DNA of 64,000 nt from contig CADEFN010000001.1 in assembly GCA_902826615.1 (NCBI GenBank), positions 496,001 through 560,000 of the forward strand, in the 5' to 3' direction. Positions 225-60,294 of the stretch are shown here, in pieces. Source of the DNA: an uncultured Gemmatimonadota bacterium (GTDB taxonomy: Bacteria; Gemmatimonadota; Gemmatimonadetes; Gemmatimonadales; Gemmatimonadaceae). Positions within the stretch are counted from its first letter, which is position 1. Every line of letters begins with the position of its first letter. A program made the position numbers and the translations under genes. The notes below the pieces were generated by a model. The model did no database searches, was not told the origin of the DNA, and saw only the letters and a list, made by a program, of their open reading frames with translations.

Positions 225-245
225 GGGTCAGCCCGCCACGGCGGC

Positions 246-1262
246 CTAACGCCGTTCCTTGAGGAAACGGACTACCCCGTCGACATACCTGCGCTGATCG
301 TCGTACATCGACATGTGGCTGCCGTTCGGGCAGAAGAGGTACTGCCCCTTGGGGAACTCCTTCGACATCCACTCCATGTGTTTGGGGTCCATCGTGTCGT
401 GGGCGCCGCCAATCACGAGGGTGGGCACCGTGATCTGCTTGAGATCGGCGCTGCGATCCCACTGCACGAGTTTGCCGCTGGCACCCAGCTCACTTGGCCC
501 CTGCATGGGGATGTAAATGTCCGTATTCACATGTGTCAGGGCGCGTGTGAGCCCGTTGGGCCACTCGGCGAACGGGGCGCGCATGACATGCAGCTCGTAG
601 TGATTGGGAATGAGCAGCTCCATGTACCGGGCATCGCTGTACTTCCCGGCAGCCTCGAGCGCCTTTACTTCGGCCAGCACCTTCTGGTCCATGGCCGGCA
701 TCAGTGTCTTCGTTGCATACTCGTTGTAGGCCGGGATGCTCGACATCATGTTCGAGATGATCAGCCCCTTGAGGTGCTGCTGATACTTGAGCGCGTACTC
801 GATTGCCAGGATGCCGCCCCACGAATGTCCCAGCAGATAGAAGTTGTCCTGCGTGAGGCCGAGTGCCTGCCGAACCTGCTCCACCTCTTCGACAAAACGC
901 GGCGTGTTCCACAGCGTGGAATCCTTCGGCTGGTCGGAATAGAAGGACCCTAACTGATCGTAGTAGTAGTACTCGATCCCCTGACCCGGGAAATACGAAT
1001 CGAAGGCCTCGAAGTACTCGTGGGTCATCCCCGGCCCGCCGTGCAGCAGGAGGAGCTTGATGGTGGGGTTGTTCCCCACCCGTTTCGTCCAGACCTTGAA
1101 CGTGCCACTCGGCGTGGTGACCGGGATGAGCCGCACGCCACCGCTCAGGGTGTCGCTCCGGCCCGTGTTGTCGAAGTAGCTGGTGGCACCCGAAGTGGCG
1201 GGGGCGCTCCCGGAACAGGCCGCGCCAATGAGGAGGGCGGCAATGGCGGCAAGGCGACGCAT
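246..1262 (-). CDS. Proline iminopeptidase-like alpha/beta hydrolase lipoprotein (S33)
   Basis: About 338 residues. The start at 1262 gives a lipoprotein-type signal (MRRLAAIAALLIGAAC); an in-frame ATG at 1316 would only add a polar 18-residue tail. The fold is S33: an oxyanion-side HGGPG motif (LLLLHGGPGMTHEYF), nucleophile elbow GHSWGG, an acid in the VIGGAHDTMDP strand and the catalytic His in GSHMSMYDD near the C-terminus. The expected activity is release of N-terminal Pro or hydrophobic residues from short peptides in the periplasm, anchored to a membrane. The substrate cannot be read from the sequence. The gene stops with CGT-TAG inside a GTTAGGC heptamer and faces the partial gene upstream. 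Confidence 0.85.
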   Translation of the reverse strand: MRRLAAIAALLIGAACSGSAPATSGATSYFDNTGRSDTLSGGVRLIPVTTPSGTFKVWTKRVGNNPTIKLLLLHGGPGMTHEYFEAFDSYFPGQGIEYYYYDQLGSFYSDQPKDSTLWNTPRFVEEVEQVRQALGLTQDNFYLLGHSWGGILAIEYALKYQQHLKGLIISNMMSSIPAYNEYATKTLMPAMDQKVLAEVKALEAAGKYSDARYMELLIPNHYELHVMRAPFAEWPNGLTRALTHVNTDIYIPMQGPSELGASGKLVQWDRSADLKQITVPTLVIGGAHDTMDPKHMEWMSKEFPKGQYLFCPNGSHMSMYDDQRRYVDGVVRFLKERR

Positions 1263-1646
1263 GTCGGCAGGGAAGTGGGGAGCGTTGATATGCGCCGCGG
1301 ACCAACGGGCCCGCAACCCCTTTTTCCCGCCTAACAGTTACGAGGCGGTGGTGGTGCGCCGGACTTCCGGCGCCGGGTTGGATGGGGTGGGGGCTCGCTC
1401 GCTCGTAACCGGTGTGGTGTCTCCGCCGTGGCCCTGGCGTGGCACCAGCCGTTCCGGTCGCAGGGTGGTAAGCCGCTCGAGTCTTGGTGCTTCGTACATC
1501 CAGGCAGGTGTCCGATAAAGTGGGGCCGCGTGCTGCTGTGTGGGGTCACAAAGCTACAGAGGGCGGGACGCCCTGTCTGTGATCTGAGAACCCTTTTCCG
1601 GCCGATTGAACCTGACAACCACTCACTCGTGAGTCCGAATCCGGAG
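1263..1646. other. Gene-free stretch with two small hairpins
   Basis: No convincing gene is seen here. A 95-codon minus-strand open frame (1331-1618) has no domain-like composition. Two inverted repeats stand out: a perfect 8-bp stem with a 2-nt loop at 1356-1373 (GCGCCGGA/TCCGGCGC) and a stem around 1556-1580 (AGGGCG-GGA-CGCCCT with flanking ACAG/CTGT). The second lies 75 nt past the stop of the ankyrin gene and could act in termination, but there is no clear T tract. A GCCTAAC heptamer at 1329-1335 is the only copy in this window outside genes and stop codons. The promoter of the S33 hydrolase should be in the left part. Confidence 0.5.
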
Positions 1647-1654: not shown

Positions 1655-2647
1655 TCAGGTTCGGGACGCCTTCCGCGCACCGGCCTTCGCGGCCGCTCTC
1701 GTCAGGCGGCGAGCCACCACAGCGCACTGAGGGTTGCCGGTGACTTTCACCGCGGTCCGAGCCCAGTCGGCCGGGGTGGCATTGTGTTCGGCGTCCCTGG
1801 CCAAAGGGTCGGCTCCATGGCGCAGGAGCAGCTCAACCATGCGCCAATCACCGCGCCATGCCGCGTCATGCAAGGCCGTGCCTCGTGATCCAGCGGCCGA
1901 TCGACCGTTAGGCGACGCTCCGCGGCCAAGCCACCAGGCGGTCAGGTGGTGGCGACCTGCTTGCACCGCCGCCACAAGCACACCGGGATTCGACAGTAGG
2001 GTGGGGTCGCGTTCAAGTGCTCGCGCGAGTGCAGGGCGGTCATTCACCCGTGCCAACACGTCGGGGGGAATTGGAACACCATGGTGTTGGAGCAACTGTA
2101 GCAACGGCTTGCCACGTGCTCCCAGTTGCGAGAGGCCATCGGCGGGAGTGACGCCCCAGCGGTCGGTTTGGGTGCCGGACACGCCGAGCGCAAGCAAACG
2201 CCGCACGGCCCATGGTGTGCGCGCAAATCGCAGCCAGCTCCCGCCACTTGGGGGTGTGGCGCGATGCGCGTTGCGGGACAGGAGACGCTTCACCGCGGAG
2301 TCCCTGCCCAGTAGCAGCGCTTCTCCCAGCCCAATGCGCGCGCCACGTCGCAGCAGCATGTCACGAGCGCGAAAGCGGCCTTTGATGGTCGCCACCAGCA
2401 GCGGCGACCAGCCATCGTAGCCCTCCTTGGATCCGTTCACGTCGGCGCCATGTGCCAGCAACCACTTCACCATCTCCTGCCGGTTCATGTCGAGTGCCAC
2501 GTGCAGAGGCTGTGGCTCCCCGCCCCAGTACGGATGCGGACCCGTGGCATTCACGATGTCAGGATTCTTTGCGACCGCCCGCTCCAGGGCGCGCACGTCA
2601 CCAGAGGCGACGGCGCGCAAGAAGGCGGCAACATCCGGCTCAGCCAT
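1655..2647 (-). CDS. Ankyrin-repeat protein
   Basis: About 330 residues starting at MAEPDVAAFLRAV. This start overlaps the TGA of the upstream BNR gene by 8 nt (ATGGCTGA), indicating translational coupling; an earlier ATG at 2689 lies inside that gene. Ankyrin signatures are visible as PLHVALDMNRQEMVKWLLAH followed by GADVN, then WSPLLVATIKGRF, and near the C-terminus TALHDAAWRGDWRMVELLLR followed by HGADP. The middle part is more degenerate. There is no signal peptide, so it is probably a cytosolic binding scaffold with an unknown partner. An SPNGR stretch carries one of the GCCTAAC heptamers in the Pro-Asn frame. Confidence 0.85.
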   Translation of the reverse strand: MAEPDVAAFLRAVASGDVRALERAVAKNPDIVNATGPHPYWGGEPQPLHVALDMNRQEMVKWLLAHGADVNGSKEGYDGWSPLLVATIKGRFRARDMLLRRGARIGLGEALLLGRDSAVKRLLSRNAHRATPPSGGSWLRFARTPWAVRRLLALGVSGTQTDRWGVTPADGLSQLGARGKPLLQLLQHHGVPIPPDVLARVNDRPALARALERDPTLLSNPGVLVAAVQAGRHHLTAWWLGRGASPNGRSAAGSRGTALHDAAWRGDWRMVELLLRHGADPLARDAEHNATPADWARTAVKVTGNPQCAVVARRLTRAAAKAGARKASRT

Positions 2648-5630
2648 CGCTCTCCTGGTCGGAGGCAACACGGGAATCACCAGTGACATTCCGGAGGCGC
2701 AGGAGCAGCACGTCGAGCTCCCGCCTCAATTCGCCAAAGATGCGATACTGCGCGGACGTGGGCCGCGCGTCCCCCGATTCCACAATGCCACGCAACCCGG
2801 TCAGCCGGTCGTTGAGCTTGATGGGGAAGGCGATCTTGTCCTTGGGGCTCTGGTTGCGCACCTGATACAACTCGGCTTCGATAGTGGAGATGGCGCGTAC
2901 CAGGGCGCTGGTGTCGGCCACTGAGCGGCCGAGTGCGCCGCGACGCTCATCACGCAGACGTCTGATGCGAAGTACCGCCTCGTTTGCCTCGCTTTCGGCG
3001 TCGCGAATGCGCAGCGCGAGCTGCGCCTGCTCCACCAGTTCGGCGTCCGTGACATCATGCAACCTGGGATCGCGACGAATCGTGAGGCTCTTGTCGTCGC
3101 GCAGGAGGCCGCCAGCGGCGTACACCTGCAGCTGCACGTTGTAAGGCCCGGGGGGAGCGAGCACGCCGCGCGCGGGGTCACCTCCTTCGAGTACAATCCC
3201 CGGGAATGACGTCGCACCGGGGTATGTGCCGTCCCAGGTGCTGCGGTGAAAACCCGGCGTGCTGCGACCGGAGATTCTGCGCGCGGCCACCCCACGTCCA
3301 TCGGTAATCACCAGCGCCACACTGTCTGCCCGCGCGGGCAGGTAGTAGTCAAACGTGGGAGTGCCGGCACGGCGCTGCACACTGGCCGGTGGCAGGAGCG
3401 CCGGTGTGCGAGCAGTCCCTGCCAGCATGTCGGGCGAGGCATGGCGGAGTGGTACAAGGTTCTCCATCACCCAGAACGAGCGGCCATGGGTGGCGATCAC
3501 CAGATCCTGGTCCTTCACGACCAGGTCGGAGATCTGCACATCGGGGAGATTGCGTGAGAGTGGTTCCCACGACGCCCCATTGGTGAGCGAGACAAAGACG
3601 CCATGTTCGGTGCCGGCATAAAGGAGCCCGGCTCGCACGGGATCCTCGCGTATCACGCGCACATAGGCACCGTCGGGAATGCCATTGGCAATGGAGGTCC
3701 AGGTGCTGCCGTAGTTGTCGGTGCGCCAGGCGTGGGGTTGCCGGTCACCCAGCTGATGCCGCTCCACCGCTACATACGCACTGCCGGGCCGATGTGGTGA
3801 CGCATCAATGCGGCTCACACGTGAATGGGGTTCGAGCCCTGAGGGTGTCACGTTGCGCCAGGTCGTGCCACCATTTCGTGTGACATGGATCAGCCCGTCG
3901 TCTGAGCCGGTCCAGATGGTGCTGGTGTCATGTCGCGACGGTGAAATGGTGAAAATCGTGCCGTAGATCTCCGGCCCATCCTGATCAAAGACAATCGGGC
4001 CACCACTGTTGCCTAACGTTGATGAGTCGGCGCGGGTGAGATCGCCACTGATGCGGCGCCAGGTCCGTCCTTCGTCGCGGGTTTTCCAGAGGTGTTGCGA
4101 CCCCGCATAGAGGACGCGTGGGTCGCGCGGCGAGGTGGCGAGCGGGTAGGTCCAGTTCCAGCGTTCGGGCATGGCCGACGCCGGTTCGCCCATCACGATG
4201 CGCGGATGTGGCTGCACATCGCGTGCGTTGCCGGTGCGTCGATCAAAACGCGTGAGGGTGTTGGTAGACCCCGCAAAAAAGAGGTCGGGATTCCCGGGGA
4301 CCGTGGCGATGTCCGCGCTTTCACCGCCTCCGACGTCGTAGAACCAGTCCCCCTGAGCGGACCCCGGCGGTGCAAGCGCGCTCGCGCGTGATGGCACACA
4401 CACCGTCGTGTTGTCCTGCTGTGCCCCACAGACGTGATACGGCACCTCATCGGTGGTGGTGACGCGGTAGATCTGCGCGGTGGGATACCGTTGCGACGTC
4501 CAGCTCACGCCGCCGTTCACCGTGACGTTCGCGCCGCCATCGTTGGCCCCAACCATGCGTTGCGGGTTTCCGGGAACGATCCAGAGGTCGTGCTGGTCGG
4601 CGTGCGGGGTGCGCAGGGTGGTGAAGGTGCGTCCCCCGTCGGTGGACCGCTCCAGCTGGAAACTCAGCACATACACGGTCTCCCGATCCTTTGGGTCGGC
4701 GACAACACGCAGAAAGTAGAAGGCGCGCTGCCAAAGGTCACGTGACGCATTCACCCGCTGCCAGGTGACCCCGCCGTCGTCCGAGCGATGAAGCCCACCG
4801 TCCTCGGCTTCGATGTTGGCCCAGAGCCGCCGGCTGTCGGCGCCGCTGACCGTGATGGTCATCTTGCCGAGCACGCCACGCGGCAGTCCGGTGTTCCGCG
4901 TCAGTTCGATCCAGGTGTCGCCCCCATCGGTGGACTTGAAGAGCCCCGATCCCTCGCCGCCACTCCAGAGGATCCACGGTTTGCGATACACCTCCCACGT
5001 GGTCGCATACAGCGTCCGTGGGTTGTTGGGATCGATGATCAGATCGACAGCACCAGCTCGTGCGCTGCGATACAGGATGCGTTGCCAGGTGCGACCACCA
5101 TCGGTGGTGCGATACACGCCGCGCGCCTCGTCAGGCGCAAAGGGGTTGCCGAGTGCGGCGACATAGGCGCGGTCGGGATCAGCGGGATCTACCCGGATGC
5201 GCCCGATGCTTTGTGTGGCGGCGAGTCCCGTGTGTGCCCACGTCCGCCCGCCATCAGTGGAGCGATACACACCATCACCCTGCATGATGTTGCCCCGGAA
5301 CTGCGTCTCCCCCATCCCGAGGTAGACCACATCGGGGTTGGACGGCGCCACGGCCACGGCACCGACGGAGGAAGAGCGGATCTGTCCATCGGTGACAGGG
5401 GCCCATGTGGTGCCGCCATCGGTGGTTTTCCAGAGCCCGCCCCCGGTTGCGCCAAAGTAGTACTCGAGCGGTCGCGCACTCGAGCCGGCTACGGCGATGG
5501 ATCTCCCGCCGCGATTGGGGCCGATGTTGCGCCACCGCAGGTGCTCGGTGGGCGAGTAGGGTGCCGGCGTCTGGGCCTCGAGGGAAGAGGCGAGGACGAC
5601 GAGGGCGAGGAGGCGACGGTGTGTGATCAC
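2640..5630 (-). CDS. Secreted BNR/Asp-box beta-propeller protein (sortilin/VPS10-like)
   Basis: 996 residues with an N-terminal signal (LLALVVLASSLEA-Q) and repeated Asp-boxes of the S-x-DGG-x-TW type: WKTTDGGTTW, YRSTDGGRTW, YRTTDGGRTW, FKSTDGGDTW, HRSDDGGVTW and ERSTDGGRTF in the first half, with weaker copies later (VTRNGGTTW, WRTDNYGSTW). This is the family often labelled glycosyl hydrolase BNR repeat or VPS10-domain protein; the propeller is clear but no hydrolase activity can be inferred. The last 200 residues lack Asp-boxes and hold a helical charged region (RIRDAESEANEAVLRIRRL). It is co-transcribed with the ankyrin gene, whose ATG overlaps its stop. It is probably periplasmic or on the cell surface. 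Confidence 0.9.
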   Translation of the reverse strand: MITHRRLLALVVLASSLEAQTPAPYSPTEHLRWRNIGPNRGGRSIAVAGSSARPLEYYFGATGGGLWKTTDGGTTWAPVTDGQIRSSSVGAVAVAPSNPDVVYLGMGETQFRGNIMQGDGVYRSTDGGRTWAHTGLAATQSIGRIRVDPADPDRAYVAALGNPFAPDEARGVYRTTDGGRTWQRILYRSARAGAVDLIIDPNNPRTLYATTWEVYRKPWILWSGGEGSGLFKSTDGGDTWIELTRNTGLPRGVLGKMTITVSGADSRRLWANIEAEDGGLHRSDDGGVTWQRVNASRDLWQRAFYFLRVVADPKDRETVYVLSFQLERSTDGGRTFTTLRTPHADQHDLWIVPGNPQRMVGANDGGANVTVNGGVSWTSQRYPTAQIYRVTTTDEVPYHVCGAQQDNTTVCVPSRASALAPPGSAQGDWFYDVGGGESADIATVPGNPDLFFAGSTNTLTRFDRRTGNARDVQPHPRIVMGEPASAMPERWNWTYPLATSPRDPRVLYAGSQHLWKTRDEGRTWRRISGDLTRADSSTLGNSGGPIVFDQDGPEIYGTIFTISPSRHDTSTIWTGSDDGLIHVTRNGGTTWRNVTPSGLEPHSRVSRIDASPHRPGSAYVAVERHQLGDRQPHAWRTDNYGSTWTSIANGIPDGAYVRVIREDPVRAGLLYAGTEHGVFVSLTNGASWEPLSRNLPDVQISDLVVKDQDLVIATHGRSFWVMENLVPLRHASPDMLAGTARTPALLPPASVQRRAGTPTFDYYLPARADSVALVITDGRGVAARRISGRSTPGFHRSTWDGTYPGATSFPGIVLEGGDPARGVLAPPGPYNVQLQVYAAGGLLRDDKSLTIRRDPRLHDVTDAELVEQAQLALRIRDAESEANEAVLRIRRLRDERRGALGRSVADTSALVRAISTIEAELYQVRNQSPKDKIAFPIKLNDRLTGLRGIVESGDARPTSAQYRIFGELRRELDVLLLRLRNVTGDSRVASDQESDG

Positions 5631-8369: not shown

Positions 8370-9755
8370 ATGACATCGCTCACTCCTCCAGAGCCGCACC
8401 TCACCTTTCGTGGGGGCACCGCGGGTGCACTGGCTCCATTCCTGGTCTTCCTTGGCGGCGTGGTGTGGCTCGCCCTGGCCGGGGCGCCGGACGAACGTGG
8501 TTTCTGGCCCGTGTTGCTTGCCGCGCTGGCGGTTGGTGTCGTTCTGGCGCGCGAACCGGGGCGATACGCCGACACGGTGATCGCGGCGATGGGGCAGCCG
8601 ATTGTGGCCCTGATGATTGTTGCGTGGCTTCTCTCCGGGGTGCTGGGGACGTTGCTCACCGAGTCGGGGCTGGTGCAGTCGCTGGTTTGGGGGGCGCGTC
8701 AGCTGCATTTGGGCCCGGCGTTGTTCACCGGCGCGGCCTTTGTGGTCTGCGCCCTCGTGTCCACCTCGACGGGGACATCGTTCGGAACCATCCTCGTGGC
8801 CGGACCGCTACTCTACCCCGCAGGCGGCGCGTTAGGCGCACCGCCTGCGGTGCTGATGGGCGCCATCCTCGCCGGAGCGACGTGGGGTGATTCCATCTCA
8901 CCGGTGTCTGATACCTCCATTGCCAGCGCGGGCTCGCAGGGCACCGATGTCCCGGGCACGGTGCGCAGCCGGCTCAAATACGTGGTGCCCGCAGGGCTGA
9001 TGGCGCTGATTGCCAGTGTGCTCCTCGCCGCGCGCGGGGCCGCCATGACCGTGCCGGTAACCGCCACCGAGGGCTCGGCGCGCGCTCTTCCGATGTTGCT
9101 GGTGCCGGTGCTGGTGATTGCGCTGATGGTGCGCAAGCGGCATCTGCTCGAAGGACTTCTCGCAGGCATCGTTTTGGCACTCGCGTTAGGCCTGTCGTTC
9201 GGACTTCTGGCGGCCTCGCGGGTCATGTACATCGATCACGACGCCTTCGGCGCCCGCGGGCTCATCATCGATGGACTCGGCCGAGGCGTTGGGGTGTCGG
9301 TGTTCACCCTGTTGCTGATGGGGCTTGTTGGCGGTGTGCAGGCGTCTGGCGTGATCGAACGTCTGACTGCGGGGCTGCGCACGACCACGACGGGGCCGCG
9401 TGCCAGCGAGGGATGGATCGTCGCGCTCGTGCTCATCGCCGCCCTGCTTACCACGCACTCGGTGGTGGCGATGCTCAGTGTCGGGGCCCTGGTGCAGCAG
9501 ATCGGTGCGCGTGCTGGCATTCATGCCTATCGACGGGCGAATCTACTGGACATGACGGTGTGTACGTGGCCCTTCATACTCCCGTACTTTCTGCCGACGA
9601 TACTGGCGTCGAGTGCCACCGCACAGGCGGTGTCGTCAGGCATGCCGCGGTTGTCGCCCTTCACGATCGGGTTGTCGAACACCTACGCCTGGTCGCTGAT
9701 GGCCATGATCATCTTTGCGATTCTCACGGGGTACGGTCGCGGGACGGACCGATAG
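8370..9755 (+). CDS. NhaC-type Na+/H+ antiporter family membrane protein
   Basis: 461 residues from ATG 8370 (a TTG lies four codons upstream). About eleven hydrophobic segments are visible, including the conserved core FVVCALVSTSTGTSFGTILV, then ILAGATWGDSISPVSDTSI, the signature of the NhaC family, where polar and charged residues line the ion path. The second half contains FTLLLMGLVGGVQASGV and the final helix set ending MAMIIFAILTGYGRG. It is expected to exchange Na+ or an organic cation such as malate-lactate for protons across the inner membrane; the substrate is not determinable. It carries two GTTAGGC heptamers (8831 and 9185), both read as Leu-Gly. Confidence 0.88.
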   Translation: MTSLTPPEPHLTFRGGTAGALAPFLVFLGGVVWLALAGAPDERGFWPVLLAALAVGVVLAREPGRYADTVIAAMGQPIVALMIVAWLLSGVLGTLLTESGLVQSLVWGARQLHLGPALFTGAAFVVCALVSTSTGTSFGTILVAGPLLYPAGGALGAPPAVLMGAILAGATWGDSISPVSDTSIASAGSQGTDVPGTVRSRLKYVVPAGLMALIASVLLAARGAAMTVPVTATEGSARALPMLLVPVLVIALMVRKRHLLEGLLAGIVLALALGLSFGLLAASRVMYIDHDAFGARGLIIDGLGRGVGVSVFTLLLMGLVGGVQASGVIERLTAGLRTTTTGPRASEGWIVALVLIAALLTTHSVVAMLSVGALVQQIGARAGIHAYRRANLLDMTVCTWPFILPYFLPTILASSATAQAVSSGMPRLSPFTIGLSNTYAWSLMAMIIFAILTGYGRGTDR

Positions 9756-9784: not shown

Positions 9785-11554
9785 TCATGGCACTTCGAGG
9801 TATCGCATGTCCAACCGCTCAGCGAGTGTGCGATCGGCGGCGGAGTGGCCCGCGTAGATACTCTGCGCGAAGTCCACGCCGCTTTCCATGGCGAACGCTG
9901 AAATGAGCCCGGGCAGCGGCTTGCGACACCAGCACACCGGTGGCCCCGCATCATGCGGGCACCAGGCCACGTGAACGTCGGCGCCGACGGCCTCCCGCAG
10001 ACGCCACGCCAGTCGCGTCATCGACGTGTTTGGGAGTGTGCCTCTCGCGATCTGTGGACGCCAGAACTGCACCATTAATCGTCTACCCAGCTTTCCATAC
10101 CGCGTGAGGATCTCGAGTGCCGCAGGGTGCAGGGCGCCGTCATCTCCGTCCCGAAGGAGAACATCGCCCTCCATCACCAGGGCACGTTCCGACATGACCG
10201 GCATCGGCTCACGAACAAACGACACCGCGTCGATGTGTTCGAACCCTTCGTCAAGCTCGGGCGCCTCCAGTGTTCGTTCGTACTTGAACAAGGCGTCGGG
10301 ACTCAGAAAGCGCGGATCGGTGCGCCCGAGTTCGCGAATCTCTTCGGGCGACGGGAGATGTCCAAGTGCGCGCAGCATGCGATCCACGGCATTACGCTGT
10401 GCATCGGCGAGTGTGGTCTGCATCCAGATACAACGGACGGGCACCCCATGGCGCCACGCACACTCGATGACATCATTGCGCGCTGCACGAGATGGGTAGG
10501 TGTTGTCGAGCACCCAACGTCGTTCCCCCGCTGCCAGACCGGCATCGAGGAGGGGCACGAGATCGGCCAGCGACCCTCCCGTGGCGTCGCGATTGAGGCG
10601 CCGGTACCCCTCGCTGGCCAGCGCCGCCGAATGGGTGGACTTTCCCGCGCCGGGGATCCCCATGACCAGCACCACATCTCCGGTGGCATCGTCCGCCGGA
10701 CGACGTGCGGCCTGAGGCGTCCGCAGCAACTGCCCATTCGCCGAGCGGTCCAACTGCTGTAGCTCGTTTGTTGTAAGCGTCAGGTGTGCAAGGTCACCGA
10801 GTGAGCGAGCACTTTCAGGGCGAGTGGCGCCTGGAATGGGCACCACACCCGCACCAAAACTTGCAAGCCAGGCGAGTGCGACGAGTGGTGGGGTGGTCTG
10901 GTGTGCGTCGGCAATGGCGCGCAGCGCCACACGCTTCTCCAGCTGCCAGATCTTGTCGCCTCCCAGTGGGCGATGGGCAATGAGCTGGATGCCGTGTGCG
11001 AGACAGAAGGCCGCAACACCGTTGCGAAGGATGGTGTCATCGAGCAGCGACCAGCTCACCTGCACTGATGCCACCTCCACCATCTCCATGGCCTCCTTCA
11101 GCTGGCCGAGTGTGACGTTGGAGAGTCCGACCCGCTGCACCAGTCCGTTCTTTCGCAGGGCAGCCAGGGCGCGAATGCCGGTCGTGAAGGGTGTTCGCGG
11201 ATCGGGTGTGTGCCACTGATAGAGATCGATGCACGAGACGCCCAGCCGCTTGAGTGACGCCTCACAGGCGCCACGCAGATACGAGGCTTTGCCGTTAGGC
11301 GTCCACTCGCCACGTGGCCGGGTGAGCCCACCCTTGGTGGCCACCACCACCCCACTCCGGTCACCCGACCATGTGCGCAGCGCCTCGGCGACGAGGAGTT
11401 CGTTATGTCCGAAGTCGGCGTCGGAATGACAGTAGGCGTCGGCGGTATCGAGCAGGGTGACACCGGCGTCGAGGGCCGCATGTATCGTGGCAATGCCACG
11501 GTCGTGGTCGCGGTCCTTTGCCGTGGAGAGTCGCATGCAGCCCATTCCGATCAT
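9785..11554 (-). CDS. Three-module fusion: aldo/keto reductase, P-loop kinase, HAD-like domain
   Basis: 589 residues from MIGMGCMRLST; the frame is open to 11689 but that part runs into the divergent gene. Residues 1-275 are an aldo/keto reductase with tetrad Asp36, Tyr41, Lys74 and His115. Residues 293-450 are a polynucleotide-kinase-like P-loop domain: GIPGAGKST (299-307), RLNRDATGG, and LDNTYPSRAARNDV followed by RCIWMQT. Residues 455-589 resemble HisB/GmhB-type HAD phosphatases, with the Cys/His zinc-like segment CPHDAGPPVCWCRKPLPGL. The expected DxD near the start reads MEGD and the GDS-xx-D motif reads GHSAAD, so phosphatase activity is doubtful. The kinase-HAD pair occurs elsewhere as an independent unit; its fusion to a reductase is the oddity. 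Confidence 0.8.
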   Translation of the reverse strand: MIGMGCMRLSTAKDRDHDRGIATIHAALDAGVTLLDTADAYCHSDADFGHNELLVAEALRTWSGDRSGVVVATKGGLTRPRGEWTPNGKASYLRGACEASLKRLGVSCIDLYQWHTPDPRTPFTTGIRALAALRKNGLVQRVGLSNVTLGQLKEAMEMVEVASVQVSWSLLDDTILRNGVAAFCLAHGIQLIAHRPLGGDKIWQLEKRVALRAIADAHQTTPPLVALAWLASFGAGVVPIPGATRPESARSLGDLAHLTLTTNELQQLDRSANGQLLRTPQAARRPADDATGDVVLVMGIPGAGKSTHSAALASEGYRRLNRDATGGSLADLVPLLDAGLAAGERRWVLDNTYPSRAARNDVIECAWRHGVPVRCIWMQTTLADAQRNAVDRMLRALGHLPSPEEIRELGRTDPRFLSPDALFKYERTLEAPELDEGFEHIDAVSFVREPMPVMSERALVMEGDVLLRDGDDGALHPAALEILTRYGKLGRRLMVQFWRPQIARGTLPNTSMTRLAWRLREAVGADVHVAWCPHDAGPPVCWCRKPLPGLISAFAMESGVDFAQSIYAGHSAADRTLAERLDMRYLEVP

Positions 11555-12434: not shown

Positions 12435-12463
12435 GCGTCAGAGGCTCGCGCCTTCGCAGACGA

Positions 12464-43402: not shown

Positions 43403-43442
43403 GCAGCGGTCCTCGTCACTTCCGCGCCAGCGGACAATCGCA

Positions 43443-51304: not shown

Positions 51305-52957
51305 GTGACACGACTCGCGGTCCGGTTTTTTCTGATGGCCGCGGTGGGCAGCGCATTGGCCTGCATCCAGTACGTCTCGCCACCCACGGAAGCCACTGTC
51401 TCGCAACAACTTGCCGCAGTAGAAGGTTTGTACGCCGACGCCCGCGACCTCTACTTTGCGCTCACCGTGGCCGAGGCGGGCGGAAGTGGCAGAAGCGGCA
51501 AAGGGGTGTCTGTTACAGAACTGCGCGGGAGCTGGGAGGCGCTGCGGGACCGCGCCAGCGAACGCCTGGCCGCGATCGATCCTGAGGCATTGGGCGGCGA
51601 GGATCGGCGAGCGTGGGAGACCATGCGCCAGAACCTCACGGCTGATTCGCCGCCACCTGCCCCCGAGCCGGAGCCCTGCCCGGGAGAAAAGGTGGCCTGG
51701 CCTGGCGATGCCGCATCGCTGGCCGGAGTGCTCCACCGATGCCGGGAACGGGCGGCGTCGGCGCTTGTGGTCGGACGCGACCCGGCGCAACTCGGGACCA
51801 TCCTCACGCGGCTGGGAAGTGACACGTCGCGGACGCAACGCAAGGCGTTGTTCGAGGCACTGCGGCCGCTGTGGGAAGAGGCGAATGGTGCGAATACACC
51901 ACTTGGGCCATGGCGTCAGCTGCAGCGACTGCAGGCGACGCGATGGCGGGCGGAGGGGCTTCCATCGGAGCTGGCGGCCCGCTCGTCAGGGATGACGTCC
52001 GCGCAGCTGGAGCCGGCGCTGGTGGCCATGCTCGAGGCGTGGCGTCGGCAGATCCCGGACTCGCTCGTGGAGCCATGGGACTGGTGGTTCGTTCACGGTG
52101 TGGCCGGGCGCCGTCTGTCGCGCGGGCTCACGGTCCGTGAGCTGGACCGGATCACTGAAGCCTACTACGCGTCGTTTGGGGCGTCGCCCATGACGCTTGG
52201 GGTGCGATTCGATCTCACACCACGTGCCGGCAAGTCGCTCGAGACAGAAGCGTACTTCGGCGGATTGTCGCGCCGCACGCGCGACGGTCCCCAGGGCGCG
52301 GAGCCGGTGGTGCTGGCGTCGTTTCGGGAGGGTGGCTTTGCGCACCTGGCCGAACTGCTCGGCGCCACGGGACGCGCTATTCACATGATGGCGATCGACA
52401 CACGGCCGGCCTTTGCCGATTTGCCGGACAGCAGAGCGTTCAGCGAGGCATTGGCTCAGCTCTCGGCGATGGAGGCGTACGAGGGGGCGTGGCAGGTGAA
52501 GTTCCTCGGCGACTCGGCGCAGCTGGGCGAGTCCCTGCGGCTGAAGTACAGCCACGTGATGTTCGATGTGAGCCTGGCGCTCTTCGAGCTTCGCCTGCAG
52601 CGCGACCCGTCGCGCGACCCCAACGCGGAATGGGCTTCCATCGCCGAGCGGTACCTGCGGATTGTTCCGCACCCCGAGTGGTCGTGGTGGGCGATGGACG
52701 GCAGTGTCGTCTCACATCCGGGTGTGGCCACCAGTCGCGCGTTAGGCGCCATGGTGGCAGCAGACCTGCGGGCGGAGGTACTGACGAGGCGCAAAGGCTT
52801 TGTTGCTGGCGGGCCAGCTCTCTACGATTGGTTGGCGAAGGAGCTGTATCAGTATGGACGTTCGCGCCCGTCGCGCGAGGTGCTGGAGCGATTCACCGGG
52901 CACACGGCAGGGCCAGGCGCGCTGATTCAGGAGGTGACGCGCATCCGCCAGCCGTGA
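51305..52957 (+). CDS. Metallopeptidase-like lipoprotein with destroyed HExxH
   Basis: 550 residues from GTG 51305 (SD AGAGGG 6 nt upstream; ATG 51266 is an alternative). Lipoprotein signal ends AAVGSALAC-I. The C-terminal half looks like an M2/M3-type gluzincin: FREGGFAHLAELLGATGRAI followed by HMMAI, where LLHExGHAIH is expected but reads LLGATGRAIH, so both His and the Glu are replaced. AMEAYEGAWQVKFLG and VVSHPGVATSRALGAMVAAD match the conserved post-catalytic helices. It is therefore probably an inactive peptidase fold used for binding. The N-terminal 200 residues are helical and unassigned. Confidence 0.6.
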   Translation: MTRLAVRFFLMAAVGSALACIQYVSPPTEATVSQQLAAVEGLYADARDLYFALTVAEAGGSGRSGKGVSVTELRGSWEALRDRASERLAAIDPEALGGEDRRAWETMRQNLTADSPPPAPEPEPCPGEKVAWPGDAASLAGVLHRCRERAASALVVGRDPAQLGTILTRLGSDTSRTQRKALFEALRPLWEEANGANTPLGPWRQLQRLQATRWRAEGLPSELAARSSGMTSAQLEPALVAMLEAWRRQIPDSLVEPWDWWFVHGVAGRRLSRGLTVRELDRITEAYYASFGASPMTLGVRFDLTPRAGKSLETEAYFGGLSRRTRDGPQGAEPVVLASFREGGFAHLAELLGATGRAIHMMAIDTRPAFADLPDSRAFSEALAQLSAMEAYEGAWQVKFLGDSAQLGESLRLKYSHVMFDVSLALFELRLQRDPSRDPNAEWASIAERYLRIVPHPEWSWWAMDGSVVSHPGVATSRALGAMVAADLRAEVLTRRKGFVAGGPALYDWLAKELYQYGRSRPSREVLERFTGHTAGPGALIQEVTRIRQP

Positions 52958-52969
52958 GGATCACTCGGC

Positions 52970-53806
52970 CTAACGAATGCGCGCCACGTTGCTCCCGGCC
53001 GATCCGAACCGGGCAAGGACCGCAGGATCATGCCCTGGCACCACCAGATCGGGCCGCGACGCGAGGGCGAGCATGCGGGCCTGCGCCGCGAGGTTGCTGA
53101 GGGAGTCGAGCGTCTGCGCAATCGGGCGTCGACCGGCCAGGTTTTCGTAGAGATACGCGTTGTCCGACGCGATGACGGCCGTGCCACCGGCGATGCGGAC
53201 GGAGACAAACTGCGACGCCCATGTGTGCTTGCCCCCGGTGTGGACACGGATACCGGGGCGAATCTCCGTGCCGTCACCCTCGGCAAAGCGAATTCTGCCG
53301 GCGGTGTGCAGCCGCCGGTACAGGGCGGCCACCTCGGGGTCGATGGCGGGTTGCTTTGCCTCACCAGAAGGCCCCACGTAGTAGTCAAACTCCTCACGCT
53401 GCAGCCACACACGCGCGGCAGGAAAACGCTCGACACCATCGGCATGGTCCCAGTGGATGTGTGAGACGATGATGTCAGTCACGCGACCGGGGTCGAATCC
53501 CGCAACACGCAGCGCCGAATCGGGCGTCATGTATCCAGTGGGCTTCCACTGCGTGATGAACTTCTCGCGTGTGAAGCCGGCGTCGACGAGGATGATGTCG
53601 CCATTTGGAGCGCTGAGTGGCCACACCATCATGGCAATATCGAGACGGCGACTGGTGTCGGCCCCGGCAATGAGGCCCCGTACGCGAAAGCCGGGAATGG
53701 TGGCAAACCGGACGGCTGCCACTTCCCAGGTTGCCGGCTCGGGAGAGCGCGTTCGTCCAGCACAGGCCGCGAAGGCGAGGACAACGACAGCAATGAGAGT
53801 GCGCAT
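52970..53806 (-). CDS. Metallo-beta-lactamase-fold hydrolase lipoprotein
   Basis: 278 residues from MRTLIAVVVLAFAACAG (lipobox FAAC-A); the longer open frame upstream has no domain features. The MBL zinc motif is intact: IIVSHIHWDHADGVERF (HxHxDH), HTGGKHTWASQFV (His), VIASDNAYLYENL (Asp) and VVPGHDPAVL (His). The layout is close to N-acyl-homoserine lactonase-like and lactonase-type MBL proteins. It acts in the periplasm, and the substrate is open. It ends CGT-TAG in a GTTAGGC heptamer, convergent with the peptidase-like gene. Confidence 0.88.
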   Translation of the reverse strand: MRTLIAVVVLAFAACAGRTRSPEPATWEVAAVRFATIPGFRVRGLIAGADTSRRLDIAMMVWPLSAPNGDIILVDAGFTREKFITQWKPTGYMTPDSALRVAGFDPGRVTDIIVSHIHWDHADGVERFPAARVWLQREEFDYYVGPSGEAKQPAIDPEVAALYRRLHTAGRIRFAEGDGTEIRPGIRVHTGGKHTWASQFVSVRIAGGTAVIASDNAYLYENLAGRRPIAQTLDSLSNLAAQARMLALASRPDLVVPGHDPAVLARFGSAGSNVARIR

Positions 53807-54060: not shown

Positions 54061-55383
54061 ATGCCGAATCACGTTGCCGTTGTCGCGCTGCTGGCTATCC
54101 CATCTCTGAACGCCCCTCGGCTGGAGGCACAACCTCAAGCCACAACGGTGTTGGTGGGGGCCACCGTCATTGATGGGACCGGTGCGCCGGGGAAAGCCGG
54201 TCAGACGATCGTCATGACGGGCGGGAAGGTCGCAGCACTCTTTGCTGACGGCCGTGGACGCTTACCTGTGGGGGCGGTCGTGCACGATCTGCGCGGCAAG
54301 TTCGTCATCCCGGGACTCATCGACGGTCATGTGCATGTCGCCACCGATCCGTCCGGGCGTGACGCCAGCGCGCGGGCGCGACTCGGACAGGCCCTGAGCG
54401 GAGGGGTGACGACGGTTCGCGATATGGCGGGGGACGCCGTCGCACTCGCGGAGCTGGCCGCAGAATGCCGCGACGCCACCCACACCTGCCCGCGCCTCTT
54501 TTACGCTGCCCTGTTTGCCGGTCCCACTTTCTTCACGGACCCGCGGGCGAAGGCATCGGCGCACGGAGGCACTCCGGGAGGGCAGCCATGGCAACGGGCC
54601 ATCACGCCGTCCACGGACCTCGTCAGCGCCATCAGGGAGGCGAAGGCCACGGGAGCCACGGGCATCAAGATGTACGCTGACCTCAACGCAGACCTTGCGA
54701 CGGCCCTCACGCGAGAGGCACACAAGCAGGGGATGCAAGTGTGGGCGCACGCGACGCTGTATCCCGCGCGCCCCAGTGAGCTGGCGCGGGCTGGCGTGCA
54801 GGGACTCTCACACACCATGCTCCTGGCGTGGGACGTCGATCCCGACATGCCAGCGCGCTACGCCGATCGCACTCCACGCGCCCCATATGAGAACGTTCCG
54901 GCCGACAGTCCTGCACTTATCAGTTTGTTCGGCACGATGAAGACGCACAATACCATTCTTGACGCCACGTTGTGGGTGACACAGCAGATCGAAGGCGCAC
55001 CGGCCGGTGCTGGTGGCTTTGCGGAGCCGCGACGTGCCGCGGCATGGGCCTTCGATGTCACCGGTCGTGCGCACGCCACAGGCGTGAAAGTGGGGGCAGG
55101 CACGGACGGTTTGGTCGACCGCTCCCCGGACGGGCTGCCGAACATCCACACGGAAATGGAGCTCCTCGTCACGCGGGCGGGACTCACGCCCCTCGAAGCC
55201 ATTCGTTCGGCCACGTCCATCAACGCCGAACTCCTCGGTCGTTCGGCAGACCTTGGCCGGATTGCTCCGGGCATGTGGGCCGACCTGGTGGTGCTCGACG
55301 CAGATCCGGCGCGCGACATTCGCAACAGCCGACGGATCGCAGCGGTGTACAAGGCTGGCGTGCGCCACCAGGCAAGCCGTTAG
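54061..55383 (+). CDS. Exported imidazolonepropionase-like amidohydrolase
   Basis: 440 residues from ATG 54061, with a weak signal (HVAVVALLAIPSLNAPRLEA-Q). Amidohydrolase superfamily: LVGATVIDGTGAP, FVIPGLIDGHVHVATD (HxH), SGGVTTVRDMAGD, GIKMYADLN (Lys), VWAHATLYP and LSHTML (His), GAGTDGLVDR (Asp) and LGRIAPGMWADLVVLDADP. It is a TIM-barrel metal-dependent hydrolase, probably cleaving a cyclic amide or dipeptide outside the cytoplasm. It ends CGT-TAG in a GTTAGGC heptamer. The sigma-factor gene begins 34 nt later. Confidence 0.9.
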   Translation: MPNHVAVVALLAIPSLNAPRLEAQPQATTVLVGATVIDGTGAPGKAGQTIVMTGGKVAALFADGRGRLPVGAVVHDLRGKFVIPGLIDGHVHVATDPSGRDASARARLGQALSGGVTTVRDMAGDAVALAELAAECRDATHTCPRLFYAALFAGPTFFTDPRAKASAHGGTPGGQPWQRAITPSTDLVSAIREAKATGATGIKMYADLNADLATALTREAHKQGMQVWAHATLYPARPSELARAGVQGLSHTMLLAWDVDPDMPARYADRTPRAPYENVPADSPALISLFGTMKTHNTILDATLWVTQQIEGAPAGAGGFAEPRRAAAWAFDVTGRAHATGVKVGAGTDGLVDRSPDGLPNIHTEMELLVTRAGLTPLEAIRSATSINAELLGRSADLGRIAPGMWADLVVLDADPARDIRNSRRIAAVYKAGVRHQASR

Positions 55384-55417
55384 GCATGTACGGCACCAAT
55401 GACCGCGCCACGCTTTC

Positions 55418-57024: not shown

Positions 57025-57685
57025 CGAGTGCCAATGTCACGCCGTCGTACCCTTTGCTTCCCACCATCTGGATGGTCGTCGCCTGCACCCGAGGCTCCTT
57101 GGCGACGAGCGCATGAAAGGCGCGCACCCCTTGCACGTTCGCGTCGGGACTCGCGGGATCGACCACCGCTCCTTCACGTACGGTGTTGTCGGCGACGATG
57201 AGTGTGCCCGGCGCGGAGAGTGCGATCGCGTGTTCCCAGTAGGCCGGATAGCCCACCTTGTCGGCATCAATGAAAACCAGGTCAAAGGGGCCGGCCCCCT
57301 GACGACGGAGCTCGGCCAGCGATTCCGCCGCCGGCCCGACGCACACGTCGACGCGATCGGCGAGCCCTGCATCAGCAAGGTTGGCCCGCGCCACCTCGGC
57401 ATGATGAGCGCTCAGTTCGAGCGTCACCACCCGTCCCCCGGGCTGGAGCCCCCGAGTCAGCCAGGTCGTGCTGTATCCGCCTAACGTGCCGACTTCGAGC
57501 ACGCGTTGTGCGCGCCTGAGTCGTACCAACATCTCCAGCAAACGACCCAGCGGAGGTGTGACGGCAATCTCCGGCAGCCCGGCCGACCGACTGCGCACGA
57601 CTCCGGCCTCGAGCGCAACATCCGGCGGGAAAAAGAGCGCCGCGATGTAGTCGTCAACCTGCGACCAGCGCGCCGTATCACTCAT
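57014..57685 (-). CDS. SAM-dependent O-methyltransferase (class I, family 3)
   Basis: 223 residues. LLEMLVRLRRAQRVLEVGTL and GGYSTTWLTRGLQPG form motif I, VVTLELSAHHAEVARANLAD holds the acidic residue that binds SAM ribose, and PFDLVFIDADKVGYPAYWEH carries the metal-binding Asp, with NTVREGAVVD as the second ligand region. It is the catechol/caffeoyl-CoA O-methyltransferase-like family. The substrate is unknown. Its ATG overlaps the stop of the M14 gene by one base (TGATG), so the two are translationally coupled. Confidence 0.9.
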   Translation of the reverse strand: MSDTARWSQVDDYIAALFFPPDVALEAGVVRSRSAGLPEIAVTPPLGRLLEMLVRLRRAQRVLEVGTLGGYSTTWLTRGLQPGGRVVTLELSAHHAEVARANLADAGLADRVDVCVGPAAESLAELRRQGAGPFDLVFIDADKVGYPAYWEHAIALSAPGTLIVADNTVREGAVVDPASPDANVQGVRAFHALVAKEPRVQATTIQMVGSKGYDGVTLALVIA

Positions 57686-60294
57686 CAGAAGCTTCCACCG
57701 AGCAAGACAGCGTTGCCAAAGATGGGCAGCAATCCACGGAAGAGGTCGCGAAAGTTGACGTCGTGCGCAAAGGCAATCACACGCCCACGTCCCACCCGTT
57801 CGGTCCAGAGCCAGGGTGACAACGCAATCTTCTCCGGCATCTCCGGCCAGAAGTAACCAGCGAGCCGCACGCGCTCCTTGGGCGCAAAACGAATCACGGC
57901 TTCACCCGCTGTGAGATCCTTCGGTACGGTGAGGATCCGGTCGGAGTTGGCGTAGACCGGAATCTCGCTCTCCATCACGCCGGCAAGCAGCGGAGACAAT
58001 GTGTCCACGGTCGCGCGAGCGATGACGCCGGGAAGTCCCGCTTGGAGTGGCGCACCGCCAGCACTGTCGGCGCGTGTGGAGTCACGACGCACGCGAACAC
58101 GCACAAGACGGGTACTCTCCTGCGCCAGCCAGCTGGTGGCGGCATCGAGCGTGATCAGGACACCACCGTTGCGCACCCAGGTGGCTAACGCGGCCTTGCC
58201 CCCCTCGCCGAGCACGCGATCGAGCGCTCCACCCTGCACGGCCGGCATGATGAGCACATCAAACCCCTCGAGCCCACTCGCCACGAAGCTCGCGTCGACC
58301 AGCGTGGTCGGGTAGCCCAGGCGCTGATCCATGGCGTACCAGGCAAACCCCCACGAACCGCCGCTCACAGGAGCGCCCGAAAGCAGCGCCACTTTAGGTG
58401 GCGCGAGGTAACGCACCGAGTTGGAGCCGAGGTCGGTGCCTTCGTCCACACCCGCCGAGGCGATCGTGTACACCGCCGCTCCGGCCTGGGTTGCCCGCTC
58501 GGCGACCACGTCATGAATGGACGAATCGTTCATCGCCACGCGTACCAGAAAGGCGCCCTTGGGAAAGCGCTTTCCGCCTGACGAGAACGCACGAGGCGCG
58601 TGCCAGACCTTGACCGAGTCCTTGAGCAGCGACGCGAGGAGGCGGTTGGACGCCTCCGAGCCGGGCTCAAAGGCGTAGCCATACTGCGCACGGCGCGTGG
58701 GAGGCATGGCCTCACGCGCCAATTCGCCTAACGGCGTGAGGCCGCCGGGCACCGTGCGGGTGTGCCAGGCCTTCACCCGATGGGCGTATGGCATGGACCA
58801 GGCCGTGATGTCATAGAAGCGGTTGCCTTGCCCGGTTCGGCGCAGCTCGAGTTCGGTGCGAATGAAGGCGGAGTCGAGTTCGGCGTCGGGTTCGAGGAGC
58901 GCCTTGGCCAGGTGTCCCTGCGGCTGCGCGAGGTCTACCACGAACGAACCGGCGCGGACGCGTGTGCTCACCGCCGCCGTCTTCTCACCGAACAGGGTGG
59001 CATCACGAAGGTCGGCATCACTCGTCAGGCGCTGCACATCAATGCCGTTGGCCTTGAGCTTGAGCGCGAGCGAGTCGGCGCGGCCCTGCAGGTCACGCTC
59101 CAGCACAATGGCCCGCATGGGTCCGGCGGCGTGAATGGTGATCGCGTCGCGTCGTGACTTGGCGTAGTCGCTCACCAGCTCCGTGCGTCGTCGCGCCGAG
59201 GTGCGCACCGTGGCCCATTCGGCGCTGTAGTGCTCCCATGCGGCCTGGCGGAGTGTGCGCAGTGTGCCGTCGTTGCGGCGAACACCTCCGCCTGACGAGG
59301 AGGCCGATTCGAACAACATGCCGATGGAGCCTGTCAGCATCGGCCAGCCTTCGCCGTAGCCCGGATAGAACGAGTCGTAGCCCTCACGCCGGAAGTATGA
59401 CCACCCATGTTTGTCGAACTCGGCGCCATGGGCGGCGGCGAAGATGTCAAACCATTTGAAGAGGTGGCGCGGGTTGTTCTTGTTGTCGGGCTCGCGTGGC
59501 GGTGCAAAGTAGAAGGTGGCGCTCGATCCCTGCTCATGCAGGTCGACCGCGACGTGCGGCATCCACTTGAGATAACTGGCCACACGTCCGCGTGTTTCGG
59601 GGTGCGACATGATGAACCAGTCGCGATTGAGATCAAACGAGTAGTGACTGGTGCGCGGGCCGGGCCATGAGCCGGCGTTGTTGAGCGCATTGCCTTCACT
59701 CGGCAGGCTCTGGAAACTCCAGGTGCGTTCGATGTCGTGGGTGTGCCGCTCGCGCCCGTCGGGGTTCTGGTTGGGGTCGATGAGGACGATGGTGCTGTCG
59801 AGTGCCATGCGTGTTTCGGCGTCGGTGCCTGCTGCGAGCTGGTAGAGCAGCGCCAGCCCCGCCTCCACGCCCGAGGCCTCACCACCATGCACCGAGTGGG
59901 CGAGCCAGACCACCGCCGGAAGGCGTTGTGTGGACGCGGCAACGTCAGCCGCCGAGGCGCTTCGTGGATCGGCCACGCGCTGGGCGTCGCGCTGCAACTC
60001 GGCGAGGCGGGCGTGATTGGCCTCGGAGGTGACCGTGAGGAGGAACATCTCGCGTCCCTCGAACGACCGGGCAACGGTGTCCACCTTTACCCGACGAGAC
60101 GCAGCGGCGACGCGCTCGATGTATCGCGTCATGGCCCGATGCGACGTGAACCGCTGACCGATGTCGTAGCCGAGTACGGCCCGTGGCGTAGGCACGGCCG
60201 GATCGTACGTTCGGCCAGCCTCGGTAAAGGCATGTTGCGCCGCACATGGGGAGGCGCAGAGCACCACGGCAGCAACGGAGCGCAGGAAGCTCAT
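57685..60294 (-). CDS. Exported M14 zinc carboxypeptidase with long C-terminal part
   Basis: 869 residues with a signal (LRSVAAVVLCASPCAA-Q). Zinc ligands: HSVHGGE (His136-xx-Glu139) and VAVDLHEQG (His253); LIDPNQNPDGRERHTHD and SFDLNRDWF are substrate-side motifs. The catalytic Glu is probably in GMLFESASSSGGG. The C-terminal half (VALLSGAPVSGGSWGFAWYA, EGFDVLIMPAVQGGALDRVL, GGVLITLDAATSWLA) has a glutamine-amidotransferase-like Rossmann character, seen in large bacterial M14 proteins. It acts on peptides in the periplasm. The coupled methyltransferase gene follows. Confidence 0.9.
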   Translation of the reverse strand: MSFLRSVAAVVLCASPCAAQHAFTEAGRTYDPAVPTPRAVLGYDIGQRFTSHRAMTRYIERVAAASRRVKVDTVARSFEGREMFLLTVTSEANHARLAELQRDAQRVADPRSASAADVAASTQRLPAVVWLAHSVHGGEASGVEAGLALLYQLAAGTDAETRMALDSTIVLIDPNQNPDGRERHTHDIERTWSFQSLPSEGNALNNAGSWPGPRTSHYSFDLNRDWFIMSHPETRGRVASYLKWMPHVAVDLHEQGSSATFYFAPPREPDNKNNPRHLFKWFDIFAAAHGAEFDKHGWSYFRREGYDSFYPGYGEGWPMLTGSIGMLFESASSSGGGVRRNDGTLRTLRQAAWEHYSAEWATVRTSARRRTELVSDYAKSRRDAITIHAAGPMRAIVLERDLQGRADSLALKLKANGIDVQRLTSDADLRDATLFGEKTAAVSTRVRAGSFVVDLAQPQGHLAKALLEPDAELDSAFIRTELELRRTGQGNRFYDITAWSMPYAHRVKAWHTRTVPGGLTPLGELAREAMPPTRRAQYGYAFEPGSEASNRLLASLLKDSVKVWHAPRAFSSGGKRFPKGAFLVRVAMNDSSIHDVVAERATQAGAAVYTIASAGVDEGTDLGSNSVRYLAPPKVALLSGAPVSGGSWGFAWYAMDQRLGYPTTLVDASFVASGLEGFDVLIMPAVQGGALDRVLGEGGKAALATWVRNGGVLITLDAATSWLAQESTRLVRVRVRRDSTRADSAGGAPLQAGLPGVIARATVDTLSPLLAGVMESEIPVYANSDRILTVPKDLTAGEAVIRFAPKERVRLAGYFWPEMPEKIALSPWLWTERVGRGRVIAFAHDVNFRDLFRGLLPIFGNAVLLGGSF

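Follow-up and report, generated by a model that had tools for sequence, protein, structure and literature searches.

YGTTAGGC, a candidate DNA signal of the uptake-sequence type in some lineages of Gemmatimonadales

Introduction

Why is a single heptamer, GTTAGGC, so frequent in a stretch of DNA from an uncultured Gemmatimonadota bacterium, and what keeps it there? The stretch (64,000 nt of contig CADEFN010000001.1, positions 496,001 to 560,000, forward strand; hereafter the window) had been described in an initial annotation as containing 27 exact copies, 12 on the plus and 15 on the minus strand, which our own count confirmed. That annotation had suggested selection at the level of DNA, as for an uptake sequence, a Chi-like or KOPS-like (FtsK-orienting polar sequence) signal, or a methylation site. 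Of these three suggestions the uptake sequence fits best, functionally as a candidate. By analogy with known systems, we put at about even chances the reading that the word, in its fuller form YGTTAGGC, serves some lineages of Gemmatimonadales across their genomes as a signal of the DNA-uptake type, spread by biased transformation.

Preferential uptake by means of words with which DNA labels itself has been described for Pasteurellaceae and Neisseriaceae (PMC1939737; what we take from this paper and from PMC2346458 and PMC3630211 rests on excerpts of them). If the same held here, uptake labelling would have evolved at least once more, in Gemmatimonadota, which are abundant and little-cultured soil bacteria. 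Sister genera without the word would then offer a natural experiment, and regular transformation would be indicated in a phylum with few genetic tools.

Results and Discussion

When both strands of the window are counted, 27 of its 48 TTAG sites belong to GTTAGGC, which upholds the dominance claimed for this heptamer. An order-0 model predicts 7.7 copies, in keeping with the earlier independent-base estimate of about 8, and Markov models of orders 1, 2 and 3 predict 2.5, 1.4 and 2.4. At orders 4 and 5 the expectation rises to 18.5 and 25.65. The comparison with an order-5 model had been proposed as a check; run in the window it comes close to the observed 27, but this tells nothing, because the model is fed with counts of GTTAGG and TTAGGC that consist of the motif itself. 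The excess is shown instead by the low orders, by a codon shuffle and by relatives. TTAGG is already in excess (40 copies against 14.6 expected), and 500 shuffles of synonymous codons among the called genes yielded 1.28 +/- 1.10 copies of GTTAGGC, with a maximum of 5, against 16 observed.

As placed by a simple gene caller, which missed some open reading frames (ORFs), the 27 copies read as TTA-GGC (Leu-Gly) in 11 cases and as CCT-AAC (Pro-Asn) in five, overlap a stop codon in six and lie outside called genes in five. Placing four of these last by hand in listed ORFs reproduced the 14 TTA-GGC, five CCT-AAC and seven stops reported before and left only the copy at 1329. The further statement that most TTA codons lie within the motif did not hold, the share being 11 of 28 in the called gene set.

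The genome from which the window comes (G000) carries 1,013 + 1,070 = 2,083 copies of GTTAGGC in 5.9 Mb and 921 copies of a reversed control word. Whole-genome counts covered the window's own genome together with 98 relatives, 99 in all, of which 59 are in the same family; a genome with 6% contamination (G054) entered only these counts and the gene-family searches. Within the family, 41 of the 59 genomes hold 7 to 114 copies, and the other 18 hold 270 to 5,785. The highest numbers belong to G025 (5,785 in 4.3 Mb), G020 (5,148 in 7.5 Mb), G032 (4,273), G024 (3,799) and G034 (3,304); G050, a congener of G025, has only 9. Genome G020 is that of Gemmatirosa kalamazoonensis, since NZ_CP007129.1 matches the initial 20 kb of the third contig of G020 at 100% identity, and the genus belongs to Gemmatimonadaceae. 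Across the phylum, CGTTAGGC exceeds 150 copies, an arbitrary threshold, in 20 of 298 sampled genomes. All 20 fall in the window's order, to which 172 of the sampled genomes belong: 12 are in the window's family, seven in a second family and one in a third; the maximum among the 126 genomes outside the order is 67. One genome of family f3 (G064) has 168 copies of CGTTAGGC genome-wide, yet no GTTAGGC in 26.6 kb around ftsZ, possibly reflecting integron arrays or an uneven distribution.

In 500 kb of the G. kalamazoonensis genome the base preceding GTTAGGC is C in 290 cases, T in 29, G in 6 and A in 3 (n = 328); C and T so dominate this position that the word is the asymmetric 8-mer YGTTAGGC. Words with one mismatch are mostly near or below expectation, and in G. 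kalamazoonensis the word is sharp, with a small halo in which GTTAAGC (0 against 4.1 expected) and GTTAGAC (1 against 4.0) fall below expectation. There are exceptions. GTTGGGC exceeds expectation in G. kalamazoonensis (86 against 38), G025 (82 against 23) and G034 (26 against 15), GTTAGGT does so in the window's genome (11 against 1.3), and GTTATGC in G024/G049 (9 against 1.8) and G030/G056 (5 against 0.8). G025, which is also laxer at the first base, shows an about threefold excess of GTTAGAC (11 against 3.6), GTTAGTC, GTTAGGA and TTTAGGC. The sharpness of the word thus varies among genomes. No substitute word, or dialect, of comparable strength was found in 32 to 40 kb of each of eight non-enriched genomes. 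In one genome without the GTTAGGC signal (G018, loci L187-L188), the palindrome GGAATTCC was in excess, with 10 occurrences against 0.5 expected in 32 kb, both strands counted, at 5 places.

To compare the same DNA with and without the word, we used a region of 24 to 40 kb anchored on ftsZ in 20 genomes of our own choosing, mostly on long contigs, 12 of them enriched in the word and eight not. The enriched genomes carry 222 copies in 448 kb, whereas the others carry none in 312 kb, where trinucleotide composition predicts 3.6. In called genes the copies are read as xxG-TTA-GGC (100), xxG-CCT-AAC (32), xGC-CTA-AC (19) and GTT-AGG-C (19), and 52 lie outside called genes or span gene ends. Non-enriched genomes encode the same amino acids mostly by CTC-GGC or another CTN-GGC, and by CCG-AAC or CCC-AAC; TTA-GGC is two changes away from CTC-GGC and CTG-GGC, the commonest forms in these relatives.

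Between congeners the word tends to stay in place. In two congeneric pairs (78-80% protein identity), 9 of 11 cases of Leu-Gly written with the motif were kept. By comparison, CTC-GGC was kept in 12 of 29 (Fisher p 0.03), CTG-GGC in 3 of 10, and all other Leu-Gly taken together in 23 of 97 (p 0.0002). In the reverse direction the figures were 9 of 12 for the motif, 12 of 37 for CTC-GGC (p 0.02), 3 of 14 for CTG-GGC and 23 of 96 for other Leu-Gly. The synonymous conservation of TTA-GGC, which had been named as a check, is therefore found between congeners and is weaker at larger distance. There, pairs of enriched genomes kept motif Leu-Gly in 66 of 347 cases, and kept less often TTG-GGC (2 of 126), CTT-GGC (18 of 258), CTG-GGC (56 of 488) and, with each genome pair taken in both directions, TTA outside the motif (7 of 207). 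Pro-Asn, also counted in both directions, was kept in 35 of 67 cases when written with the motif, in 9 of 65 with CCG-AAC-type codons and in 18 of 82 with CCC-type codons. CCT-AAC without a preceding G was well kept too (9 of 14, distant enriched pairs, ftsZ-anchored regions), which the motif does not explain.

Maintenance at the DNA level, suggested at the outset as selection, is thus well supported by the codon shuffle, by use in several frames and between genes, by the 222 copies against none around ftsZ and by retention between congeners. Chance, codon usage or a mutational hotspot would agree with the order-5 counts, circular as these are. We reject this explanation with near certainty, given the shuffle (1.28 against 16 observed), the empty ftsZ regions of eight relatives, the retention of positions and the two changes that separate TTA-GGC from CTC-GGC or CTG-GGC.

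In a tree of the 20 genomes built from 10 genes (4,910 columns), the non-enriched G019 grouped with the enriched G034 and G. kalamazoonensis with full support, and the non-enriched G018/G045 and G013 lay among enriched lineages. Judging from this tree, the signal would either be ancestral in the clade, with at least three losses, or have been gained several times. If it was lost, the copies vanished after the loss, and therefore would not persist by themselves.

Under the uptake reading, the type IV pilus/ComEC transformation machinery would include a receptor on the cell surface with a preference for DNA fragments that bear the word. Import and recombination would then favour word-bearing over word-less alleles, and copies arising by point mutation would accumulate at all positions where the protein or the intergenic sequence permits. 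An uptake receptor as the recogniser and biased transformation as the driver are both inferred.

The models for this reading are the DNA uptake sequences (DUS) of Neisseriaceae and the uptake signal sequences (USS) of Pasteurellaceae. Like the present word, these occur, according to the excerpt, in thousands of copies on both strands, in and outside genes (PMC1939737). They also share with it a small one-mismatch halo, a preferred orientation in reading frames and family members that lack the word (PMC3630211, PMC2346458). Known uptake sequences favour one orientation in genes (PMC2346458), Neisseriaceae include members without the word, and for kingDUS one mismatch adds 21% (both in the part of PMC3630211 consulted). 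Scale, orientation in genes, the small halo and the word-less relatives are the reasons for which we liken YGTTAGGC to an uptake signal, without claiming membership. It differs from DUS and USS in belonging to another phylum with GC-rich genomes, in being known from sequence alone and, in the G. kalamazoonensis sample, in that close inverted, terminator-like pairs are not in excess, only 6 of 242 neighbouring copies there being inverted within 200 bp.

The layout of copies on the chromosome bears on the signals that are tied to replication. Known Chi words are co-oriented with replication. In G. kalamazoonensis, with dnaA at C2:1,209,284, the terminus taken as opposite and 42 chromosome regions sampled, leading and lagging copies stood at 268:228 (p 0.08) and intergenic ones at 83:76. 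The co-orientation that a Chi-like or KOPS-like signal would entail was therefore not seen in this genome. Within genes, orientation along the coding strand was preferred on both replication strands (141:83 and 69:44; in total 210 sense, 127 antisense). A Chi-type recombination hotspot, read by a RecBCD/AddAB-type enzyme on incoming or broken DNA, would be an exact 8-bp word like the present one, and by driving itself through recombination it would also accumulate at synonymous sites; Chi itself is over-represented in E. coli, with 1,008 copies where 151 are expected (excerpt of PMC1939737). Given the lack of clear strand polarity, and an excess over relatives far above that of Chi (PMC1939737, in part), we consider such a hotspot unlikely. 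A chromosome segregation signal of the KOPS kind had been hinted at by polarity near the inferred terminus in the first 20 regions. With all 42, leading copies made up 56% in the 0.3 Mb on either side of the inferred terminus and 54% of the whole set; to the extent that polarity is what defines such a signal, this explanation is refuted, and we give it next to no chance. Motif density declines towards the inferred terminus, from 7.7 to 4.7 per 10 kb, and GC content falls alongside.

Even spacing is typical of USS. Compared with uniform placement, gaps shorter than 200 bp were scarce in G. kalamazoonensis (35 against 63.1, z -4.0), in G025 (24 against 43.9, z -3.9) and in G034 (2 against 6.8, z -2.0), and of 84 control 7-mers of similar frequency in G. 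kalamazoonensis only one was as low in short gaps. Density also followed base composition, computed on 4-kb pieces of the sampled regions. In G. kalamazoonensis it rose with GC content (Spearman 0.46, p 1e-11), the GC-poorest pieces having 3.6 copies per 10 kb and the GC-richest 8.3. Other TTAG sites ran in the opposite direction, from 3.5 to 0.85. The coefficients for the word were 0.63 in G025, 0.47 in G034 and 0.45 in the window's genome. The word is AT-richer than the genome, yet it is densest in GC-rich DNA. The GC-poor DNA would be the more foreign part, GC being only a proxy for foreignness.

These patterns raise a rival that we regard as possible, though clearly a minority view: the word may be the binding site of another genome-wide factor, a nucleoid or chromosome-organising protein or the reader of a HIP1-like word (highly iterated palindrome 1), selected for chromosome coverage. 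Even spacing, the use of both strands and of genic and intergenic DNA, retained positions and absence from whole lineages all suit such a factor. The HIP1 word of cyanobacteria (GCGATCGC) shows an equally extreme lineage-specific excess, of the same scale as here, with 5,648 copies of GGCGATCGCC against 5 expected in Synechocystis (excerpt of PMC1939737). HIP1 is described there as a palindrome containing a methyltransferase site, however, whereas YGTTAGGC lacks such symmetry and is not listed in the methylome of G. kalamazoonensis. A structural role would also need strong selection at each of thousands of 8-bp sites. Density differs more than fivefold between enriched genomes, and within the G. 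kalamazoonensis chromosome it more than doubles between the GC-poorest and the GC-richest pieces; a slow drive suits this better than a structural need.

Several observations weigh against the uptake reading. Even spacing is weak in the window's genome (0 gaps below 200 bp, against 3.6) and in genomes pooled for this purpose (3 against 6.7), a pooled set of four genomes lacks the GC trend, and a different DNA-bound factor whose sites accumulate slowly would likewise be compatible with even spacing and low density in GC-poor DNA. Distant pairs keep the commonest form, CTC-GGC, better (332 of 1,113) than motif Leu-Gly (66 of 347). At 8 bp the word is shorter than the known DUS and USS (9-12). 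A high-copy, possibly phage element of G. kalamazoonensis (L009) is denser in the word (14 per 15.0-kb unit) than the sample of its genome (542 per 900 kb).

The transformation genes speak for the uptake reading in so far as the machinery it requires is there, but they do not discriminate. ComEC, a PilQ-like secretin, a ComEA-like protein and DprA are present in all 14 enriched genomes checked, but also in nearly all of 28 non-enriched ones (ComEC 27, PilQ-like 27, ComEA-like 23, DprA 27), the PilQ-like matches all lying below the curated cut-off and the ComEA-like ones exceeding it in 2 of 42 genomes; these genes are therefore no predictor of enrichment. Nor is the GspH/FimT pilin family distinctive, occurring in 11 of 14 enriched and 17 of 28 non-enriched genomes; a receptor might be of another family. 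None of ComEC, PilQ, ComEA, DprA and GspH, tried as discriminating genes, tells enriched from non-enriched genomes. We know of no uptake or transformation experiment in Gemmatimonadaceae, and a literature search combining this family with natural transformation found nothing. Searches for Gemmatimonad with uptake sequence or over-representation showed no such word for this phylum among the matches listed, and for Gemmatirosa with uptake and overrepresented found nothing, neither of which proves absence in print; matches to the bare word were swamped by primers.

The deposited element L009 (contig 1 of G020) corresponds to the smallest of the published G. kalamazoonensis replicons (5,312, 1,106, 1,041 and 21 kb; PMC3974934). 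Its bases 1-5003 are identical to 14998-20000, so that the 21-kb circle looks, from its sequence, as if a unit of 15.0 kb had been deposited with overlapping ends. Among seven of its ORFs that were searched, one resembled phage DNA primases and six had no match.

A methylation site was the third of the original suggestions. Recognition or methylation by a DNA methyltransferase or a restriction-modification system might be suggested by the patchy presence of the word between sister lineages, as with mobile methyltransferases, and by its asymmetry and its adenine. Restriction normally depletes sites, however. 5-Methylcytosine is poorly seen by single-molecule real-time (SMRT) sequencing. The SMRT methylome of G. 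kalamazoonensis lists as N6-methyladenine (m6A) motifs only RGATCY, ATGCAC and CCAGN7TCA, each more than 99% methylated (PMC3974934). YGTTAGGC is not among them despite the 5,148 copies of GTTAGGC in this genome. For this one strain, which is enriched in the word, m6A at the word is thereby largely refuted, and a methylation site is in our judgement very unlikely.

A different connection emerged from integrons, which are very common in Gemmatimonadales: 52 of 98 genomes have an integrase that passes the curated cut-off. Pairs resembling attC sites were found in 7 of 12 integron stretches (one each of G097, G020, G025, G034 and G026, and two of the window's genome) and not in those of G092, G273, G059, G024 and G051. 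Their commonest core box, [CT]GTTAGGC, is the same 8-mer as the genome-wide word; core boxes of the G. kalamazoonensis array also include CGTTAGAC, CGTTGGGC and CGTTAAGC.

The word might accordingly be integron-related, its copies being attC-like or attG-like integrase sites scattered through the genome. The shared core box, the frequency of integrases, the excess of the attC-type variant GTTAGAC in G025 and that of GTTGGGC in G. kalamazoonensis, G025 and G034 would agree with this. Yet an integrase over the cut-off is present in 11 of the 14 enriched genomes and likewise in 21 of the 28 non-enriched ones, the enriched G096 has weak partial integrase matches only, and GTTAAGC and GTTAGAC are depleted in G. 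kalamazoonensis. With so few neighbouring copies inverted there within 200 bp, the copies are not attC-like pairs. Unlike attC cores (R boxes), they mostly lack a close inverted partner, are scattered through genes and do not track the integrase gene, and we hold an integrase-site origin to be highly improbable. An integron integrase was rejected as the driver, being present in enriched and non-enriched genomes alike, and so were attC arrays as the source of copies, array-like spacing being seen in some low-copy relatives such as G097 and G059.

The identity of the word with the attC core may be a coincidence or a co-opted recognition, and it suggests a connection between transformation and the capture of cassettes that could be tested. 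Extending the uptake reading, Gemmatimonadales could be a third independent lineage with an uptake label, one in which the label equals the core of the recombination sites of integron cassettes and natural transformation is coupled with the integron system. We think this extension improbable, though worth stating. If it were true, environmental gene cassettes would carry the uptake label, and transformation would preferentially import cassettes in addition to DNA of kin.

In the window itself, the word is read as TTA-GGC at 4011..4017 (minus strand; ORF 2640-5630(-)), at 8831..8837 and 9185..9191 (plus; both in ORF 8358-9755(+)), at 24808..24814 and 25441..25447 (minus; ORF 24700-25986(-)), and at 27792..27798 and 29139..29145 (minus; the hrpB-like ORF 27138-29960(-)). 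The same reading applies at 33523..33529 (plus; ADOP-family permease ORF 32291-35011(+)), 47672..47678 (plus; ORF 47433-48149(+)), 57479..57485 (minus; ORF 57014-57685(-)) and 58726..58732 (minus; ORF 57685-60294(-)). Three further TTA-GGC copies were placed by hand in ORFs missed by the gene caller: 12221..12227 (plus; ORF 11457-12434(+)), 44007..44013 (minus; ORF 43443-45158(-)) and 52741..52747 (plus; ORF 51266-52957(+)).

Antisense copies giving CCT-AAC lie at 1907..1913 (plus; ORF 1655-2689(-)), 11294..11300 (plus; ORF 9785-11689(-)) and 48986..48992 (minus; ORF 48234-49271(+)), and two more, at 16453..16459 and 17047..17053 (both minus), fall in a Uup-like ABC-F gene, 15398-17290(+).

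A TAG stop is supplied at 244..250 (minus) to ORF 246-1316(-), at 17314..17320 (minus) to ORF 17316-17954(-), at 43398..43404 (plus) to ORF 42866-43402(+), at 52968..52974 (minus) to ORF 52970-54058(-) and at 55379..55385 (plus) to ORF 54040-55383(+). The copy at 12430..12436 (plus), also placed by hand, ends the caller-missed ORF 11457-12434(+), and that at 21307..21313 (plus) covers both the TAG stop of ORF 20637-21311(+) and the TAA stop of ORF 21308-22213(-). The exact match at 1329..1335 (minus) belongs to none of these three classes.

The Uup-like protein has its best relatives in metagenome-assembled genomes of Gemmatimonadetes (77% identity over the full length; one partial match of 82%), and on sequence similarity the window is placed in Gemmatimonadota, in a family-level group that we call f1. 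Of the two copies in its gene, the one at 16453 is shared by 1 of 44 other aligned loci (G003, same genus) and the one at 17047 by none of the 44, loci that matched on the minus strand having been dropped from this comparison. At least one copy of GTTAGGC is present in 7 of 36 Gemmatimonad loci (L021-L056).

CTAG is strongly depleted in the whole window, at 7 places (14 on both strands, against 89.5 expected from trinucleotides). The 634-residue product of ORF 9785-11689(-) combines an aldo-keto-reductase-like N-terminal part (about residues 48-316) with polynucleotide kinase-like (330-491) and HAD-type phosphatase-like (about 509-629) stretches.

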